Of a stretch of DNA of 64,000 bases, positions 21,554-26,897 are shown one piece after another. How positions within the stretch are numbered: position 1 is the first letter of the stretch; the number at the start of each line of letters is the position of its first letter. This stretch comes from Niabella yanshanensis (GTDB lineage Bacteria > Bacteroidota > Bacteroidia > Chitinophagales > Chitinophagaceae): NCBI RefSeq assembly GCF_034424215.1, contig NZ_CP139960.1:5456001-5520000 (forward strand), in the 5' to 3' direction. The notes beneath the pieces are model-generated. The model did no database searches. It was not told the origin of the DNA and saw only the letters and a program-made list of their open reading frames with translations. The translations under genes and the position numbers were made by a program.

Positions 21554-22303
21554 ATGGCATATATGGGGCAGGAGTATACTTTAGAAATTGCAACATCAGA
21601 TTTTGAATCTACCAAAAATGCCGTGGCTGGGGGAGCGGACCGTATAGAGCTCTGTGCCAACCTGGGAGAAGGAGGTACCACCCAATCTTACGGGGTAATT
21701 AAAAAATGCAGGGAAAGTTTTGATGTGAAAATCTACCCGATTATCCGGGTGCGGGGCGGTGATTTTTTTTATACGGAAGAAGAGTTTGAATGTATGCTGT
21801 ATGATGCGATGCAATGCAAAGCGCTTGGATGTGATGGTATCGTGATCGGTTTTTTAAACAGGGATGCATCCATTGATATAAAGCGAACAGCGCGATTAGT
21901 GGAAGCGGTTTATCCGCTTGGTGTTACTTTTCACCGGGCCTTCGATCGCTGTATAGCACCGTTTGAAGCCTTAGAGCAATTGGTAGATATTGGGTGTGAG
22001 CGCGTGTTAACCAGTGGTCAGCAGCTCACGGCTCCTCAGGGAGCCGCATTGATAGCCGAATTGAACATGGTGGCTAATGGGCGTATCGGCATCATGCCCG
22101 GAAGCGGAGTACGTGCGAATAATCTATTGGTGCTGGCTGCACAAACCCGATGTTATGAATTTCACACTTCACTGAGGGAGTTAAAGAAAAGCGATATGTC
22201 TTTTTTTCCTCTTGCTTTTGAAAGCAGTGTAGAAAATGATCATTACAGCATTAATGAAGCAGCAGTAAAGGAAATGAAAAGTGTTTTGAGCAAGCTTTCA
22301 TAA
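21554..22303 (+). CDS. cutC: CutC family protein
   Basis: A 249-residue TIM-barrel protein of the CutC family, historically called copper homeostasis protein but of uncertain biochemical role. Landmarks are GGADRIELCANLGEGG at about residues 24-39, IIRVRGGDFFYT at about 62-73, VTFHRAFDR at about 122-130, and RVLTSGQ at about 149-155. It lies 88 bp after the glycosylasparaginase gene on the same strand and may be cotranscribed. A second ATG three codons in is equally possible as start. Confidence 0.9.
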   Translation: MAYMGQEYTLEIATSDFESTKNAVAGGADRIELCANLGEGGTTQSYGVIKKCRESFDVKIYPIIRVRGGDFFYTEEEFECMLYDAMQCKALGCDGIVIGFLNRDASIDIKRTARLVEAVYPLGVTFHRAFDRCIAPFEALEQLVDIGCERVLTSGQQLTAPQGAALIAELNMVANGRIGIMPGSGVRANNLLVLAAQTRCYEFHTSLRELKKSDMSFFPLAFESSVENDHYSINEAAVKEMKSVLSKLS

Positions 22304-22514: not shown

Positions 22515-23288
22515 TTATAAGATAATGTTAATCTGCGTGCCCTCTTTCAGCTTACTGGTTAGTGTAAATTGGGCTCCGATGGTTTTTGCGCGGCTTTCCA
22601 TATTAATTAACCCTACGCCGGCTTTTTCGTTACTGCTGGTATCAAATCCCTGCCCGGTATCTTTAATGCTGATTTTTAGTTGGTCTTCTTCTTTTTGGAT
22701 GCTGATGTGAATTTCACTTTCAGGTGCATGCTTGGTTGCATTGTTGACCGCTTCCTGTACAATTCTGAATAAGATGATCTCCTTTCGGGGGTCTAGTTCC
22801 AGGGATTCATCACTGGTGTGAAGTGTGGCGCTGCCAATACCGAGTTTATTGATTTTAGACAGCTCTAATCTCAAGGAAGCGATAAAGCCAACCTGCGTTA
22901 TTTTATCTCCCAAAAGTGTTTGCGATATATGGCGGATGTCCTGCAGGCTATTGGAAATGATTTCCCGGCAGGTTTGCAGTTTTACATTTTGATCCTGGCC
23001 AGCTTCCTGCATCAAGAGGTTAAGGTATATGGAAGCTGCGGATAATTGTTGTCCAACGTTATCATGCAATTCCCGGCTAATGTCGTCAAAGGCCTTTTCC
23101 TGTATTTCTATGGTACTGGTTAAAAGATCTTCGTTGAATTTTGTCTGGAGCAGCTGTTTTTCCCTCGAATTTTGTTGTTGTTTTTTATAATAGGCGACCA
23201 CAAAAAAGATGATGAATCCCGCCAGCAATCCGAAAAGAAGAATTCCTGTGATAATAAATACATATATTTCAGATACATTATTGTTCAT
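22515..23288 (-). CDS. NarL-type (HisKA_3) histidine kinase, module B
   Basis: A 257-residue kinase with a single N-terminal transmembrane segment (about 8-32), a coiled linker, the HisKA_3 dimerisation box with H75 in SRELHDNVGQQLS, and an HATPase_c domain with NNATKHA, DTGQGFDT and GVGLINMESRA. It has no sensor domain of its own. Its start overlaps the stop of the upstream membrane-protein gene by 11 bp, so the two are probably translated together and may form a split receptor. It is closely related in layout to the kinase at 25180-25962, sharing E-K-x-LL, FN-x2-LL-x-S-x-IE-x-QE and ELHDNVGQ. A longer frame to 23321 exists but is not preferred. Confidence 0.88.
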   Translation of the reverse strand: MNNNVSEIYVFIITGILLFGLLAGFIIFFVVAYYKKQQQNSREKQLLQTKFNEDLLTSTIEIQEKAFDDISRELHDNVGQQLSAASIYLNLLMQEAGQDQNVKLQTCREIISNSLQDIRHISQTLLGDKITQVGFIASLRLELSKINKLGIGSATLHTSDESLELDPRKEIILFRIVQEAVNNATKHAPESEIHISIQKEEDQLKISIKDTGQGFDTSSNEKAGVGLINMESRAKTIGAQFTLTSKLKEGTQINIIL

Positions 23289-23916
23289 TTGGTCTGCGCC
23301 TGCTGTCCAAATATATAACAATCCCTGTAGTGAGGTAGTATTGCATATTAAGAATATAGGTTATGTCAGACAAATTCAGTGTGCTGTTGTTAGTTCTCAA
23401 AAGAAAATTATAGAAGCTCCAGCAGAAGAAATTAAAAGTGTATAGTATTAATGTGGATGTGTTATACCAAAATAAGCCTTGCCGGAGCAATTGCTTTTCT
23501 TCTGTATTTTGCAGCATGTTTTTGAATAAAAGCAACGAGCAGAGAACATATATAATATTAGATGGCAGCATCGCATTGGTTGGTACCGTCCAAACGCTCT
23601 GCATCAGACCTGTGTTGATCATGGAAAATATAATAAACGCAACCCAGGACCAACAAATTATAATTCTTGATTTTTTTAAATAATGGAAATAAAAAAGGGT
23701 GATAAAAAAGTACTGTAGCGGCTGGTAAATATGATAGGGCGGGCAGCTGTTTCTATACTCTTTAATAAAAATACGAGTTATTGATTCGCTAATAAAAGTA
23801 ACCAGAATAAAAATGGTCAGGACTCTGTAAGGATTACTTAACTTTTTAAAGTTATAAAACCCCATCATCCATGTGATTAGTAAAACGATGAGATATACTA
23901 GGAAGCGCGTGCTCAT
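23278..23916 (-). CDS. Multi-pass membrane protein, module B
   Basis: A 212-residue protein made almost only of hydrophobic helices, about six or seven, with short polar loops and no recognised domain. The third segment begins PYHIYQPLQYFFITLF, and the sixth contains GLFWYNTSTLILYTF. The layout parallels the 226-residue protein at 25932-26612, which has NYWVYKLNATASFLVILT and SIFWCVVGIFTYYAG at matching places. It overlaps the following kinase gene by 11 bp and follows the Cys-tail gene by 18 bp. I infer that it is the signal-receiving part of a split sensor. Function unknown. Confidence 0.7.
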   Translation of the reverse strand: MSTRFLVYLIVLLITWMMGFYNFKKLSNPYRVLTIFILVTFISESITRIFIKEYRNSCPPYHIYQPLQYFFITLFYFHYLKKSRIIICWSWVAFIIFSMINTGLMQSVWTVPTNAMLPSNIIYVLCSLLLFKNMLQNTEEKQLLRQGLFWYNTSTLILYTFNFFCWSFYNFLLRTNNSTLNLSDITYILNMQYYLTTGIVIYLDSRRRPNEQ

Positions 23917-23934
23917 ATTTACTCAACTGTATTA

Positions 23935-24501
23935 TTATGGTTGAGGCGTTGGCTCCGGTTCTCCGCAACGATCGGGGCATGCGTCAGTATGATCGTAAAA
24001 ATCGCCTTCATCTTCCACTTCATCATCAGTGAGTTTTAGTGTTTTCTGTACTGTAGTACCCTTCTGTCCACTTTTCCCGGGCACCGTACCCCGAATGATA
24101 AGGGTTAAAGCCTGGTTTTTATTTTTACTATAAGGTTCAGCTTTGCCAAAATAAACGCTGTACCCGACTATATTAGATAATTTATCGATCTTTCTTATAG
24201 ATTCATCCATGCCTCTTAAGGCCTGCCTCGAAATCCAGAAGCCACGTAAAGTAGTTTTACCATCAGCGGTTACCAGTTTATAAGCATCACCCAATGAATC
24301 CTGAGCTGCCAGGTAGTTGGATATGTATGCGTCTGCAACTTCTTTTGTAATAGGCCCGGCTTTAGTGGGGATAGGATTGGCCGTTCCGTCATTATCTCTT
24401 TTTATAACCCGGTCGTAAACATAGAAGGATAAAAAGCCTAATAATATTAAAAATAAATAGAAAGGAATACGCTTTACAGATATCGTTTCGTTTTGGGCCA
24501 T
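23935..24501 (-). CDS. Membrane-anchored small protein with C-terminal CPxxC tail, module B
   Basis: A 188-residue protein. One N-terminal transmembrane segment (about residues 13-30) anchors it; residues 52-140 form an alpha/beta domain with LRGFWISRQALRGM (85-98) and SVYFGK..QALTLIIRGTV (115-140); an acidic stretch (159-170) leads to the tail DACPDRCGEPEP with C175 and C179. Residues 88-138 resemble the smaller protein at 26628-26897 (FYFTREKIESL, then KVRFS and NVIEICARA), so the two are probably paralogues. The frame is open to 24588, but the ATG at 24501 avoids overlap with the response regulator gene. Function unknown; the Cys pair could bind metal or take part in redox chemistry. Confidence 0.65.
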   Translation of the reverse strand: MAQNETISVKRIPFYLFLILLGFLSFYVYDRVIKRDNDGTANPIPTKAGPITKEVADAYISNYLAAQDSLGDAYKLVTADGKTTLRGFWISRQALRGMDESIRKIDKLSNIVGYSVYFGKAEPYSKNKNQALTLIIRGTVPGKSGQKGTTVQKTLKLTDDEVEDEGDFYDHTDACPDRCGEPEPTPQP

Positions 24502-24548
24502 GTGGTAGTGTTTAAATTGCGGTAAATGTATATATTTATAAGTTATAA

Positions 24549-25190
24549 TTATAGTTTTACCAATTCTTTTCTTATTGCTTCCAGGCAAAGTCCCACACGG
24601 CTCTGTACGTTAAATTTTTTAAATAATGCCTCCCTGTAACCATCAATGGTGCGTTCACTGAGGTTCATCTCTGATGCGATTTGCTTGTAAGTAAGTTCGC
24701 TACAGGCATATTGTAGAAAAATAGCTTCTTTGGGACTTAAGAGCGGCCCTTCTCTTTCATCGGCTTTCATCAATATTCTGCGAAAATTGATATTACCTGC
24801 ATCGGCATTGTAATAGCCCTTTTTATTAATCTCATCCAATGCTTTTTCAAGCTCGTTGGGGTGCGTGTCTTTTAAAAGATAGCCGCAACAGCCTGCCCTG
24901 AACATCGATATGATAGCATCATCGTCGGCATTCATTGATAATGCCACTGGTTTGATTTGGGGATAGCTATCCGTAAGCCATTTAACTGTTTCAATGCCAT
25001 TCATAACAGGCATATTCACATCTATGAGCATGATTTCCGGTAACTCTTTTTTGTGTTTTATTTTTTCCTGGAGGTCTTTACCATTACTTGCTTCCAGTAT
25101 TACTTCATATACGTTGAAGCTCTCCAGCATCAGGCTTAACGATTTTAAGAAAAGCTGATGGTCATCTACAAGACCTATTTTAGTTTTCAT
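24549..25190 (-). CDS. LuxR/NarL-family response regulator
   Basis: A 213-residue regulator with a receiver domain (acidic pocket D9-D10, phospho-acceptor D57 in IMLIDVNMPVMNG, and Lys in the KDTHPNE region) and a C-terminal GerE/LuxR helix-turn-helix (LTYKQIASEMNLSERTIDGYREALFKKF). It is the only response regulator in the seven-gene cluster and lies between the two modules. Its start overlaps the end of the module A kinase gene by 11 bp. It is therefore the likely phosphorylation target of one or both kinases. Its own operon may be among its targets. Confidence 0.92.
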   Translation of the reverse strand: MKTKIGLVDDHQLFLKSLSLMLESFNVYEVILEASNGKDLQEKIKHKKELPEIMLIDVNMPVMNGIETVKWLTDSYPQIKPVALSMNADDDAIISMFRAGCCGYLLKDTHPNELEKALDEINKKGYYNADAGNINFRRILMKADEREGPLLSPKEAIFLQYACSELTYKQIASEMNLSERTIDGYREALFKKFNVQSRVGLCLEAIRKELVKL

Positions 25191-25962
25191 CGGTTTCTAA
25201 AGTTTGGGGTATAACAATAACGATACTGGTGCCTTTAATGGAGGATTCGTGATGGATGGTACCTCCTAAAAGTTTGGTACGGTATTGCATGTTTTTTAAA
25301 CCCATTCCTTTGTTTTCTTTGTTTTGGAATCCGGTTCCGTTATCCGCCACTGTAATTTCAGCATCAGTACCTTTTCTGTAAAAATAAATATCTATCACTT
25401 TACAATTGCTATGTTTTAAGGCATTTTGTACAGCCTCCTGTATAATTCGAAAAAGAATGATCTGTTTGGAAGAGGGGAGAACGGGCTCAGCATGTATATG
25501 AAGGTTAGCGCTTATGGCATTTCCTGCATTTACCCTTAATACTTCAGCTTTCAGGTTGTCCAACAGGTTAAATTGAGATAGCCAGTCTTTATCAAGAGAT
25601 TTAGACAAAGACCTCAATTCCGTAATAGCTTTTCCTATAGTGGCGTTTGCAGTCAGCAAAGTGTCTGGCGGCGTTTGGAGGCTTCGTTCTGCCAATCCGA
25701 TCAGCATACGGGAAGTACTTAAAAGCTGACCTACATTATCATGCAGTTCTTTGCCGATCTGGGAGAATGTTTGTTCCTGCACCTCTATCTGGGAACGTAA
25801 CAATTGGCTGTTAAAATCTTCTTCAAGCAACCGCTTTTCTTTGAGGTGTTTATAATCTCTGCGTTTGTAAGCCATTAATAGAACAACTATAAATAAAGTA
25901 ATTAAAAGAAAAAAGACTGAAGCACCCAGTATTACGACAATATCGTTCGATAATTTTTGCAT
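25180..25962 (-). CDS. NarL-type (HisKA_3) histidine kinase, module A
   Basis: A 260-residue kinase with one transmembrane segment (about 8-31), a linker, the HisKA_3 box with H74 in GKELHDNVGQLLS, and an HATPase_c domain with QNALKHS, DNGTGFQN and GMGLKNMQYRT. It lacks a sensor domain. Its 5' end overlaps the 3' end of the membrane-protein gene by 31 bp and its 3' end overlaps the response regulator gene by 11 bp, so the three are translationally linked. It pairs naturally with the response regulator and is a paralogue of the kinase at 22515-23288. Confidence 0.9.
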   Translation of the reverse strand: MQKLSNDIVVILGASVFFLLITLFIVVLLMAYKRRDYKHLKEKRLLEEDFNSQLLRSQIEVQEQTFSQIGKELHDNVGQLLSTSRMLIGLAERSLQTPPDTLLTANATIGKAITELRSLSKSLDKDWLSQFNLLDNLKAEVLRVNAGNAISANLHIHAEPVLPSSKQIILFRIIQEAVQNALKHSNCKVIDIYFYRKGTDAEITVADNGTGFQNKENKGMGLKNMQYRTKLLGGTIHHESSIKGTSIVIVIPQTLETDEN

Positions 25963-26612
25963 AAGATGCCATAGCTGATATACAGGCTACAAATAAATAA
26001 AAGAATATTGTGAAATCGCCATAAAGCACCCAGCGTGCTGCTGCTGGTGTCTATTACATATTTATAGGATATAAATATAAAGAATGCTCCGGCATAATAT
26101 GTGAAAATACCTACTACACACCAAAAAATACTTGTTTCGGGAATACTGACCTCCTCATGGGTATTGATGAGCTTGGAATAGAAAAAGTACAGACTAAGAG
26201 CAACAATAACAATGCTTTCAAAGGCTGAGCTCCCCGAGCTGAATTGTGAGATACCGTCACCATTTACAATCAATAATATGGAAACAGCAGCATATGAAAT
26301 TAATGCGGCGTACATTACCTGAGGGCTGCAATGCAACAGATATTTTAAAAAGAGCGTCAGAATAACAAGAAAAGATGCGGTGGCATTAAGCTTATATACC
26401 CAATAATTATTTTGCAGAAGAATAAATTTTGTGGGAACTGCCAGGCGCTCGATAATGGAAGCTGTACAATTACAGATTAATTGAATCAGGCAGAAGATCA
26501 GAATTAGAAGGACCTCTTTAGAAAGCATTTTCTTACTTCTTAAAAGAAATGCAACTGCTATAGCAGGACCAACAGTATCCAATATGTTTAATATTTGAGA
26601 AAGGGTTTTCAC
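25932..26612 (-). CDS. Multi-pass membrane protein, module A
   Basis: A 226-residue integral membrane protein with about seven hydrophobic helices and short loops. No known domain is recognised. The arrangement of aromatic residues in the third helix (NYWVYKLNATASFL) and the sixth (SIFWCVVGIFTYYAGAFF) parallels the 212-residue protein of module B. It follows the small Cys-tail gene by 15 bp and overlaps the kinase gene by 31 bp. I infer that it supplies the sensory membrane part for the kinase, which has only one helix of its own. Confidence 0.7.
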   Translation of the reverse strand: MKTLSQILNILDTVGPAIAVAFLLRSKKMLSKEVLLILIFCLIQLICNCTASIIERLAVPTKFILLQNNYWVYKLNATASFLVILTLFLKYLLHCSPQVMYAALISYAAVSILLIVNGDGISQFSSGSSAFESIVIVALSLYFFYSKLINTHEEVSIPETSIFWCVVGIFTYYAGAFFIFISYKYVIDTSSSTLGALWRFHNILLFICSLYISYGILCKNYRTILS

Positions 26613-26627
26613 ACTGATTGTCTCAGA

Positions 26628-26897
26628 TTATTGTTCTACTTCTTCGGCTTTATTATCGCATCCGGGAGGGTAAGGGCATCCATGTGCCGGCCTTTCCACA
26701 CCGCGGTTTTTTGCCTTCCCGTTATCGGCACGGGCGCATATCTCTATTACATTCAGCTTTTCATTGTCAGCAGAAAAACGCACTTTTATTTCCTGGCTGA
26801 TGATGATGCCCTTTGCCTGAGGGTTCTCCTTTAGGAGGCTTTCGATTTTTTCTCTGGTGAAGTAAAATTCGAGCTTGCACTGATTATTTTCTAACAT
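26628..26897 (-). CDS. Small soluble protein with C-terminal CPx4C tail, module A
   Basis: An 89-residue protein and the first gene of the seven-gene operon. Residues 9-57 form a compact alpha/beta unit, FYFTREKIESLLKENP then IIISQEIKVRF and NVIEICARA, that resembles residues 88-138 of the module B protein at 23935-24501. A Gly/Lys/Pro-rich linker leads to the tail HGCPYPPGCDNK with C74 and C80. It has no signal or membrane segment in the chosen form; a longer frame to 26933 would add a short hydrophobic start. Function unknown. The shared domain and cysteine tail are the main reason to see the two modules as duplicates. Confidence 0.6.
   Translation of the reverse strand: MLENNQCKLEFYFTREKIESLLKENPQAKGIIISQEIKVRFSADNEKLNVIEICARADNGKAKNRGVERPAHGCPYPPGCDNKAEEVEQ

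Follow-up and report, generated by a model that had tools for sequence, protein, structure and literature searches.

How does a sensor kinase that carries no recognised sensor domain receive its input? This question is raised by a 64,000-nucleotide stretch of the Niabella yanshanensis genome (NCBI RefSeq assembly GCF_034424215.1, contig NZ_CP139960.1, positions 5,456,001 to 5,520,000 of the forward strand; host genome 5.54 Mb, one contig), referred to below as the window. At positions 22515-26897 of the window, seven open reading frames (ORFs) lie on the minus strand in the order S1-M1-K1-RR-S2-M2-K2, where S denotes a small protein with a Cys-Pro tail, M a seven-helix protein, K a kinase and RR (or R) a regulator. 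The module is a two-component system in which two new families, S and M, join the kinase and regulator. In the preferred reading, to which a probability of about 60% is given, M would provide the input, S would act as an accessory, and K would signal to the regulator, with both kinases working through the one RR. The positions, strand and lengths of the seven ORFs, given in an original prediction made from the sequence alone, were all borne out by an ORF check:

26628..26897, minus strand: S1, soluble protein with a Cys tail, a divergent form within family S, 89 aa; tail CPYPPGC at 26658-26678
25932..26612, minus strand: M1, family M membrane protein, seven helices predicted, 226 aa; GTG start
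25180..25962, minus strand: K1, minimal kinase of the NarL type (HisKA_3/HATPase_c), with a single hydrophobic stretch at its N-terminus, 260 aa
24549..25190, minus strand: RR, NarL/LuxR-type response regulator (Response_reg and GerE) of the module-1 lineage, 213 aa
23935..24501, minus strand: S2, Cys-tail protein with a hydrophobic N-terminal anchor, 188 aa; tail CPDRC at 23965-23979
23278..23916, minus strand: M2, family M membrane protein, seven helices predicted, 212 aa
22515..23288, minus strand: K2, minimal NarL-type kinase with no regulator gene behind it, 257 aa

Both kinases contain HisKA_3 and HATPase_c, and the regulator directly behind K1 contains Response_reg and GerE, all above both Pfam cut-offs. 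A HisKA_3/HATPase_c kinase beside a receiver-GerE regulator is the make-up of a NarL-type two-component system, as had been predicted. The only further accepted domain in either kinase is a second ATPase-type match, in K2, and Pfam recognised no sensor domain in these proteins of about 260 residues, each with one N-terminal hydrophobic stretch. The frames overlap by 31 nt (M1/K1), 11 nt (K1/RR) and 11 nt (M2/K2); the M helices and the kinase are thus encoded by separate, overlapping ORFs in the window and not by one fused chain. Since K lacks a recognised sensor and M precedes it in an overlapping frame, M is the obvious candidate for the membrane input.

S1, S2, M1 and M2 gave no match reaching a Pfam or NCBIfam cut-off, and no accepted family from either collection was found for 35 members of family S or 34 members of family M. 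Lipoprotein-type NCBIfam models matched up to 4 of the 35 S proteins (best E 5e-4), DUF4345 one of 34 M (E 0.0016) and mraY one of 34 M (E 0.0043); none of these was accepted, the likeness being put down to signal peptides or membrane helices. The best sequence relatives in the PDB were partial and unconvincing, at E 0.034 for the S profile and E 0.31 for the M profile.

The recurrence of the arrangement was examined in 195 genomes of the window's family and 395 genomes across the phylum. M2 as sole query found matches in 68 of the 195 family genomes (E 0.01), and the 1.5-kb flanks of its best matches already display S-M-K-RR. S2 as sole query matched only three of 195 (E 0.01), and the named relatives found with it were all Niabella (Chitinophagaceae), so that family S is detectable mainly by profile. 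Profiles built from 35 S (A2) and 34 M (A3) sequences found S in 144 and M in 165 of the family genomes (E 0.001), with up to nine M matches per genome. Across the phylum, S was found in 57 and M in 79 of 395 genomes (E 1e-5), including two families outside the window's class. No relatives of M2 were found in viral contigs or plasmids, and a mobile origin of the module was rejected on this ground.

Among 113 distinct M ORFs, S lies directly upstream of 103 and a NarL-type kinase directly downstream of 102, with 31 of the 113, the window's M2 included, coming from loci L006-L037, which mostly supplied the profile rows, and other locus batches having been fetched with S; three M ORFs (L129, L140, L169) were dropped by an overlap filter. 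The cleanest figure is given by loci L117-L144, which were fetched with M alone and lay outside the training, because other batches mostly trained the profiles or were fetched with S; here S is upstream in 24 of 29 and K downstream in 24 of 29. The regulator is next after the kinase in 56 of 69 loci with sequence left. The usual unit is S-M-K-RR, and the trio withstands the refuting condition set with the original prediction, under which S and M would not be found beside such kinases elsewhere. The exceptions to the S-M-K order have an upstream ORF that is not labelled, two M genes in a row, or one S-M pair stacked on another.

The association was also followed from the side of S. Separate profile searches were limited to the best 150 places each; of the 121 S places outside the training set, 57 had a listed M between -60 and 600 nt downstream. 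Twenty regions with S and no listed M were then fetched: 15 have a labelled M downstream, two an unlabelled multi-helix ORF followed by a kinase, and one the order M-K-RR-S. In locus L113 (2615-3499), an S core and Cys tail form the end of a 294-aa ORF that is located after the regulator rather than before M. A third, separate S-M-K-RR module occurs in the window's own genome (L191 7206-9704; C1:913205-915703), with a soluble S ending CPPLCPQPSELNQ.

The resemblance of the two copies in the window holds for all three protein types, as the original prediction had claimed. K1 and K2 are 36% identical (E 1e-45). M1 and M2 match by BLASTP at E 4e-5 across 63 aa; M1 scores 84 bits with an M profile built without M1-type rows, and hhalign gives a probability of 99%. 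S1 and S2 show no BLASTP match (best E 20). The link between them comes from an S profile without S1-type rows, with which S1 scores 16 bits and three relatives 14-18, against a maximum of 5.9 bits for shuffled sequences (n=1000). In hhalign the S1 type matches family S at 91% probability, with the F-[YW]-[FI]-[ST]-R-x2-[LI] motif aligned to the F-x6-L stretch of the family. On these scores the earlier by-eye pairing of the S motifs appears correct, and S1 is best described, from profile similarity, as a short, divergent member of family S. It is missing from the match list of profile A2 (two matches in the own genome), though it is one of the rows of that profile.

In an alignment of 107 M proteins, hydrophobic stretches and lysine/arginine (K/R) density fit seven helices with a predicted N-out/C-in orientation, and the predicted seven helices of M1 and M2 agree with the earlier counts of about seven and of six to seven. 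K/R residues are densest after helices 1, 3, 5 and 7. For M with soluble and lipoprotein S partners, respectively, the mean K/R number is 3.1 and 3.2 in loop 1, 3.2 and 2.6 in loop 3, 2.0 and 2.3 in loop 5, and 2.3 and 2.2 at the C-terminus, compared with 1.1 and 1.1 in loop 2, 0.9 and 0.4 in loop 4, and 1.5 and 1.5 in loop 6, where the contrast is weakest. The predicted topology is therefore unchanged between the two kinds of partner. Some of the best-conserved positions of M lie on the predicted outer side (a glutamate ending helix 2, an N-N pair, two tyrosines, an asparagine and a serine); others face the inside (F-W ahead of helix 6) or belong to helix 7.

In the preferred reading, M, with its seven predicted helices, would be the membrane input subunit of each module. 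S, a small domain whose C-terminal tail carries Cys-Pro, would serve as the accessory of M, and jointly they would control the balance between the kinase and phosphatase activities of K. This NarL-type kinase has a single membrane helix, no recognised sensor domain and a frame overlapping that of M. K would then phosphorylate the NarL/LuxR regulator. Within the genus, module 2 has been placed behind module 1 and has no adjoining regulator of its own, and both kinases would most likely act via the one RR. The original prediction of a split receptor with a Cys-tail partner stands as far as the recurring trio, the uncharacterised S and the place of M beside a K with no recognised sensor domain are concerned, and a split receptor would fit. 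Gene content, family relations, recurrence, gene order and the history of the lineages are observed, and the topology is predicted; physical contact in an S-M-K complex, the direction of control, the shared regulator and the nature of the signal are what we infer.

The role of S is where explanations diverge. By eye, its core shows F-x6-L followed by an approximate G-[IV]-R-[IVL]-Y-x-G motif and a strand reading T-L-V-[LI]-V; the C-terminal tail comes after the core. The predicted Cys tails are present in both window proteins, and 95 of the 114 distinct S ORFs have CPx1-5C within their last 60 residues, compared with two of the 431 other ORFs in these loci, an enrichment that is partly circular as the S ORFs were chosen by a profile that includes the tail. 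The remaining 19 comprise ten with Cys-Pro only and nine with neither, so that Cys-Pro is present in 105 of 114. The second cysteine is missing in forms with tails such as CPPASDPESPLNS and in further Niabella forms, which were assigned to S by eye and mostly escaped the profile; their ends read ACPPP, with a few more residues, or ICPPP.

The tail could suggest that S is a thiol-redox or metal/heme sensor, in which the Cys-Pro tail changes state and M relays the change to K. Cys-Pro is also a heme-regulatory motif, and it is retained in nearly all of the S ORFs counted above. A Bacteroidota protein, SprF, is reported to form disulfides through its C-terminal twin-cysteine tail (PMC12635249). 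However, the 19 ORFs without CPx1-5C and the Niabella ACPPP/ICPPP ends indicate that a CxxC pair is not essential, which weakens it as an obligatory redox pair, and S proteins located on both sides of the membrane would meet very different thiol chemistry. This explanation is considered unlikely.

The N-termini of the 114 S proteins were classed, by a rule of thumb rather than a trained predictor and with uncertain start codons, as lipoprotein-like in 36, otherwise hydrophobic in 15 and soluble in 63. A fixed side for S is not supported by this distribution, which is mirrored in the window by a soluble S1 and an anchored S2. That S switches sides freely while M keeps its topology is the oddest fact about the module, and it is poorly explained by a partner domain, a signal precursor or a redox/ligand sensor alike. 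S2 is out of frame at about the same spot near 6120 in L002 and L003, from two Niabella assemblies with other frame breaks; this is probably an assembly error, though the shared position is curious.

Alternatively, S could be the signal or its precursor, with M reading a Cys-Pro tail peptide that S releases or displays, in the style of an autoinducer precursor, receptor and kinase. A small gene directly upstream of a membrane protein, a kinase and a regulator would suit such a system, as would the short, subgroup-specific tails at the very C-terminus of S (CPxxC-x3-4-SPLN and CPxxCP-x2-GTA types), the freedom of S in side and anchor, and the stacking of S-M on S-M (L141, L148). Against this, S has a conserved domain besides its tail, no leader is recognised in the soluble forms, no protease or exporter was recognised among the recurrent neighbour families within flanks of mostly 1.5 kb, and none of 34 M members has an accepted AgrB-type match in Pfam or NCBIfam. 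In agr-type quorum sensing, a small protein, a membrane protein, a kinase and a regulator share one operon, and the kinase itself carries the receptor helices, whereas K here has one hydrophobic stretch. A role as signal precursor thus seems improbable, to about the same degree as the redox or heme sensor.

Outside the window's class, the kinase behind S-M contains PAS and HisKA_3 in L142, L188 and L189. In L133 it contains PAS and HATPase_c with a HisKA match just below the cut-off, and is not of the NarL type, and in L167 the ORF behind S-M, ended by the locus edge, has PAS domains only. Since S-M stays while the class of kinase behind it varies, S-M looks like an exchangeable input cassette. 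Stacked forms also occur, namely S-M-S-M-K (L148), S-M-M-K (L134) and S-M on S-M (L141), and the S of L142 has two core stretches by eye. A broader proposal, which we regard as tentative and rather less likely than not, is that S-M is an undescribed, phylum-wide cassette of this kind. It would consist of a seven-helix receptor and a side-switching, Cys-Pro-tailed partner that plug into unrelated kinases, the S tail would be a ligand- or redox-gated handle read by M, and paralogous cassettes could be stacked on one regulator, as in the window.

The same observations bear on a plainer explanation, that these are ordinary two-component operons with conserved neighbours, S and M being targets or passengers with an unrelated membrane job. 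No biochemical link is known, and some S stand without M. However, the M-K order extends across families with frames that often overlap, S-M remains constant while the kinase class changes, and a labelled K is missing directly behind M in only 11 of 113 ORFs, of which five are followed by another S or M and two lie at a locus end. We consider the passenger explanation very unlikely. For 54 modules, the distance matrices of S, M, K and R are correlated at 0.59 (S-M), 0.68 (M-K) and 0.85 (K-R), with all pairs between 0.29 and 0.85, and the best of 500 permuted-row controls reached 0.201. Such agreement is as expected for a jointly inherited unit and would alone be no proof of contact.

The two modules of the window had been read as a duplicated receptor. 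S1-M1-K1-RR orthologues occur as a stand-alone four-gene unit in three of 17 genus genomes (G022, G119, G581; regulator 85-88% identical), whereas in four of 17 S2-M2-K2 comes next (own, G588, G583, G579; regulator 84-100% identical). M matches at E 1e-5 number one each in G022 and G119, and in G581 they amount to no more than two fragments of a gene of the M1 type; a module 2 is accordingly not seen in these three. K1 belongs to a clade with L118, L014, L112 and L137 (seven rows, SH-aLRT 100), whereas K2 is placed elsewhere in the tree; the nearest kin of K1 outside the genus (L137, L014) are closer to it than K2 is. M1 and M2 are likewise far apart in the M tree. Forcing the module-1 and module-2 types into one clade costs 27 log units for K and 35 for M, with AU test values of p 0.074 and p 0.072, so that a single clade is disfavoured in these trees, short of formal rejection. 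A recent local tandem duplication is rejected by the lineage evidence, namely the kin of K1 and the occurrence of module 1 alone, while the AU p stays at 0.07.

The RR of the window belongs to the K1 lineage. S2 and M2 have some of their nearest counterparts in a module of genome G084 (L006/L009), and that module has its own regulator. The simplest history suggested by these sequences is that module 2 joined module 1 and then lost its regulator, and the simplest reading is that K2 would use the RR common to both modules. The shared regulator is deduced from position: elsewhere the regulator usually follows the kinase, and none follows K2.

Several findings weigh against the preferred reading. 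The phosphoacceptor helix of K2 shows no clear convergence on that of K1, with an identity of 0.34 as compared with 0.27-0.33 for the four comparison kinases of L006, L010, L012 and L033. S has no fixed membrane side, with at least 16 changes of side by parsimony on the K tree (97 labelled rows), which makes one direct S-M contact hard to fit. In two of the 20 regions fetched for S without a listed M (L101, L116), S stands without M. Finally, the distance correlations also carry the common descent of the operon as a whole and that of the species.

Various known systems resemble the module in part. LiaS and VraS are NarL-type kinases with little sensor domain. In LiaFSR and VraTSR of Firmicutes, an accessory protein is encoded beside the kinase and regulator; LiaF is reported to be a negative regulator and VraT to be needed for full activity. 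Similarly, the membrane accessory gene M lies directly before K in 102 of 113 cases. The differences are that no catalogued LiaF or VraT family is among the Pfam and NCBIfam matches of the 34 M, that an extra S gene precedes M, that K has one hydrophobic stretch, and that S-M is also found before PAS-containing kinases. By analogy, S-M-K-RR may work like LiaFSR/VraTSR, though its accessory proteins matched no accepted family in the searches made. In UhpABC, the kinase, of the NarL type, takes its input from a separate membrane protein, the transporter homologue UhpC. Among NCBIfam models, UhpB ranks first for K2 and second for K1, in each case far under its cut-off. Unlike UhpC, M has about 215 aa and no accepted family match. 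Fusions of seven-helix receptors to kinases differ in that M and K are separate ORFs, and M has no accepted receptor Pfam. SprF, of the gliding and type IX secretion machinery (SprF/PorG), shares a C-terminal cysteine pair with S; it serves the gliding machine as a carrier in the outer membrane and has a Cys-Xaa-Cys motif and a disulfide-linked C-terminal tail (PMC12635249), whereas S is small, often soluble, encoded beside a kinase and carries Cys-Pro-x2-Cys. No description of an S-M-K-RR module was found by title or start of abstract among the open-licence papers listed.

Neighbouring genes offer a few leads to targets. In the window, a YCF48/BNR-type gene lies upstream of the cluster on the same strand, and cutC (21554-22303) lies downstream and convergent, with no sign of belonging to it. 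Besides pairs, the recurrent non-module families of the loci are phage-tail-collar, lipid A acyltransferase, dnaB-like and AraC-like, of which the dnaB-like and AraC-like ones were named by eye. In genomes G084, G003 and G091 (L006 2210-3088, with a PF03279 match; L012; L052), the gene immediately upstream of S encodes a lipid A acyltransferase, a possible hint at an envelope function. Arrays of one to three collar genes (PF07484) stand divergent beside S in several lineages (L174-L178; G001 C2, G101 C20), in some with a formyltransferase-like and a periplasmic-binding-protein-like gene alongside. L174-L178 are five of 20 regions, these five having been fetched because collars had shown there, and the listing for L183 and L184 was cut short. 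Among 70 collar clusters taken from the listed matches in the family sample, two, from one genus, lie within 8 kb of an S or M on lists of the best 150 places each. The own genome has three collar genes, none near a module, and collar genes as a module regulon are a possible lead only. Eighteen tandem collar-domain matches were seen in one Chitinophagaceae genome (G136 C4:489334-500177), not near a listed module.

Of the sampled genomes, 165 of 195 in the window's family and 79 of 395 across the phylum contain family M, yet no Pfam or NCBIfam entry was accepted as a match for either S or M. Should S-M prove to be the sensor, an input would at once be at hand for a set of NarL-type kinases that have no recognised input domain, and how such kinases read their surroundings would become directly testable in a four-gene system.

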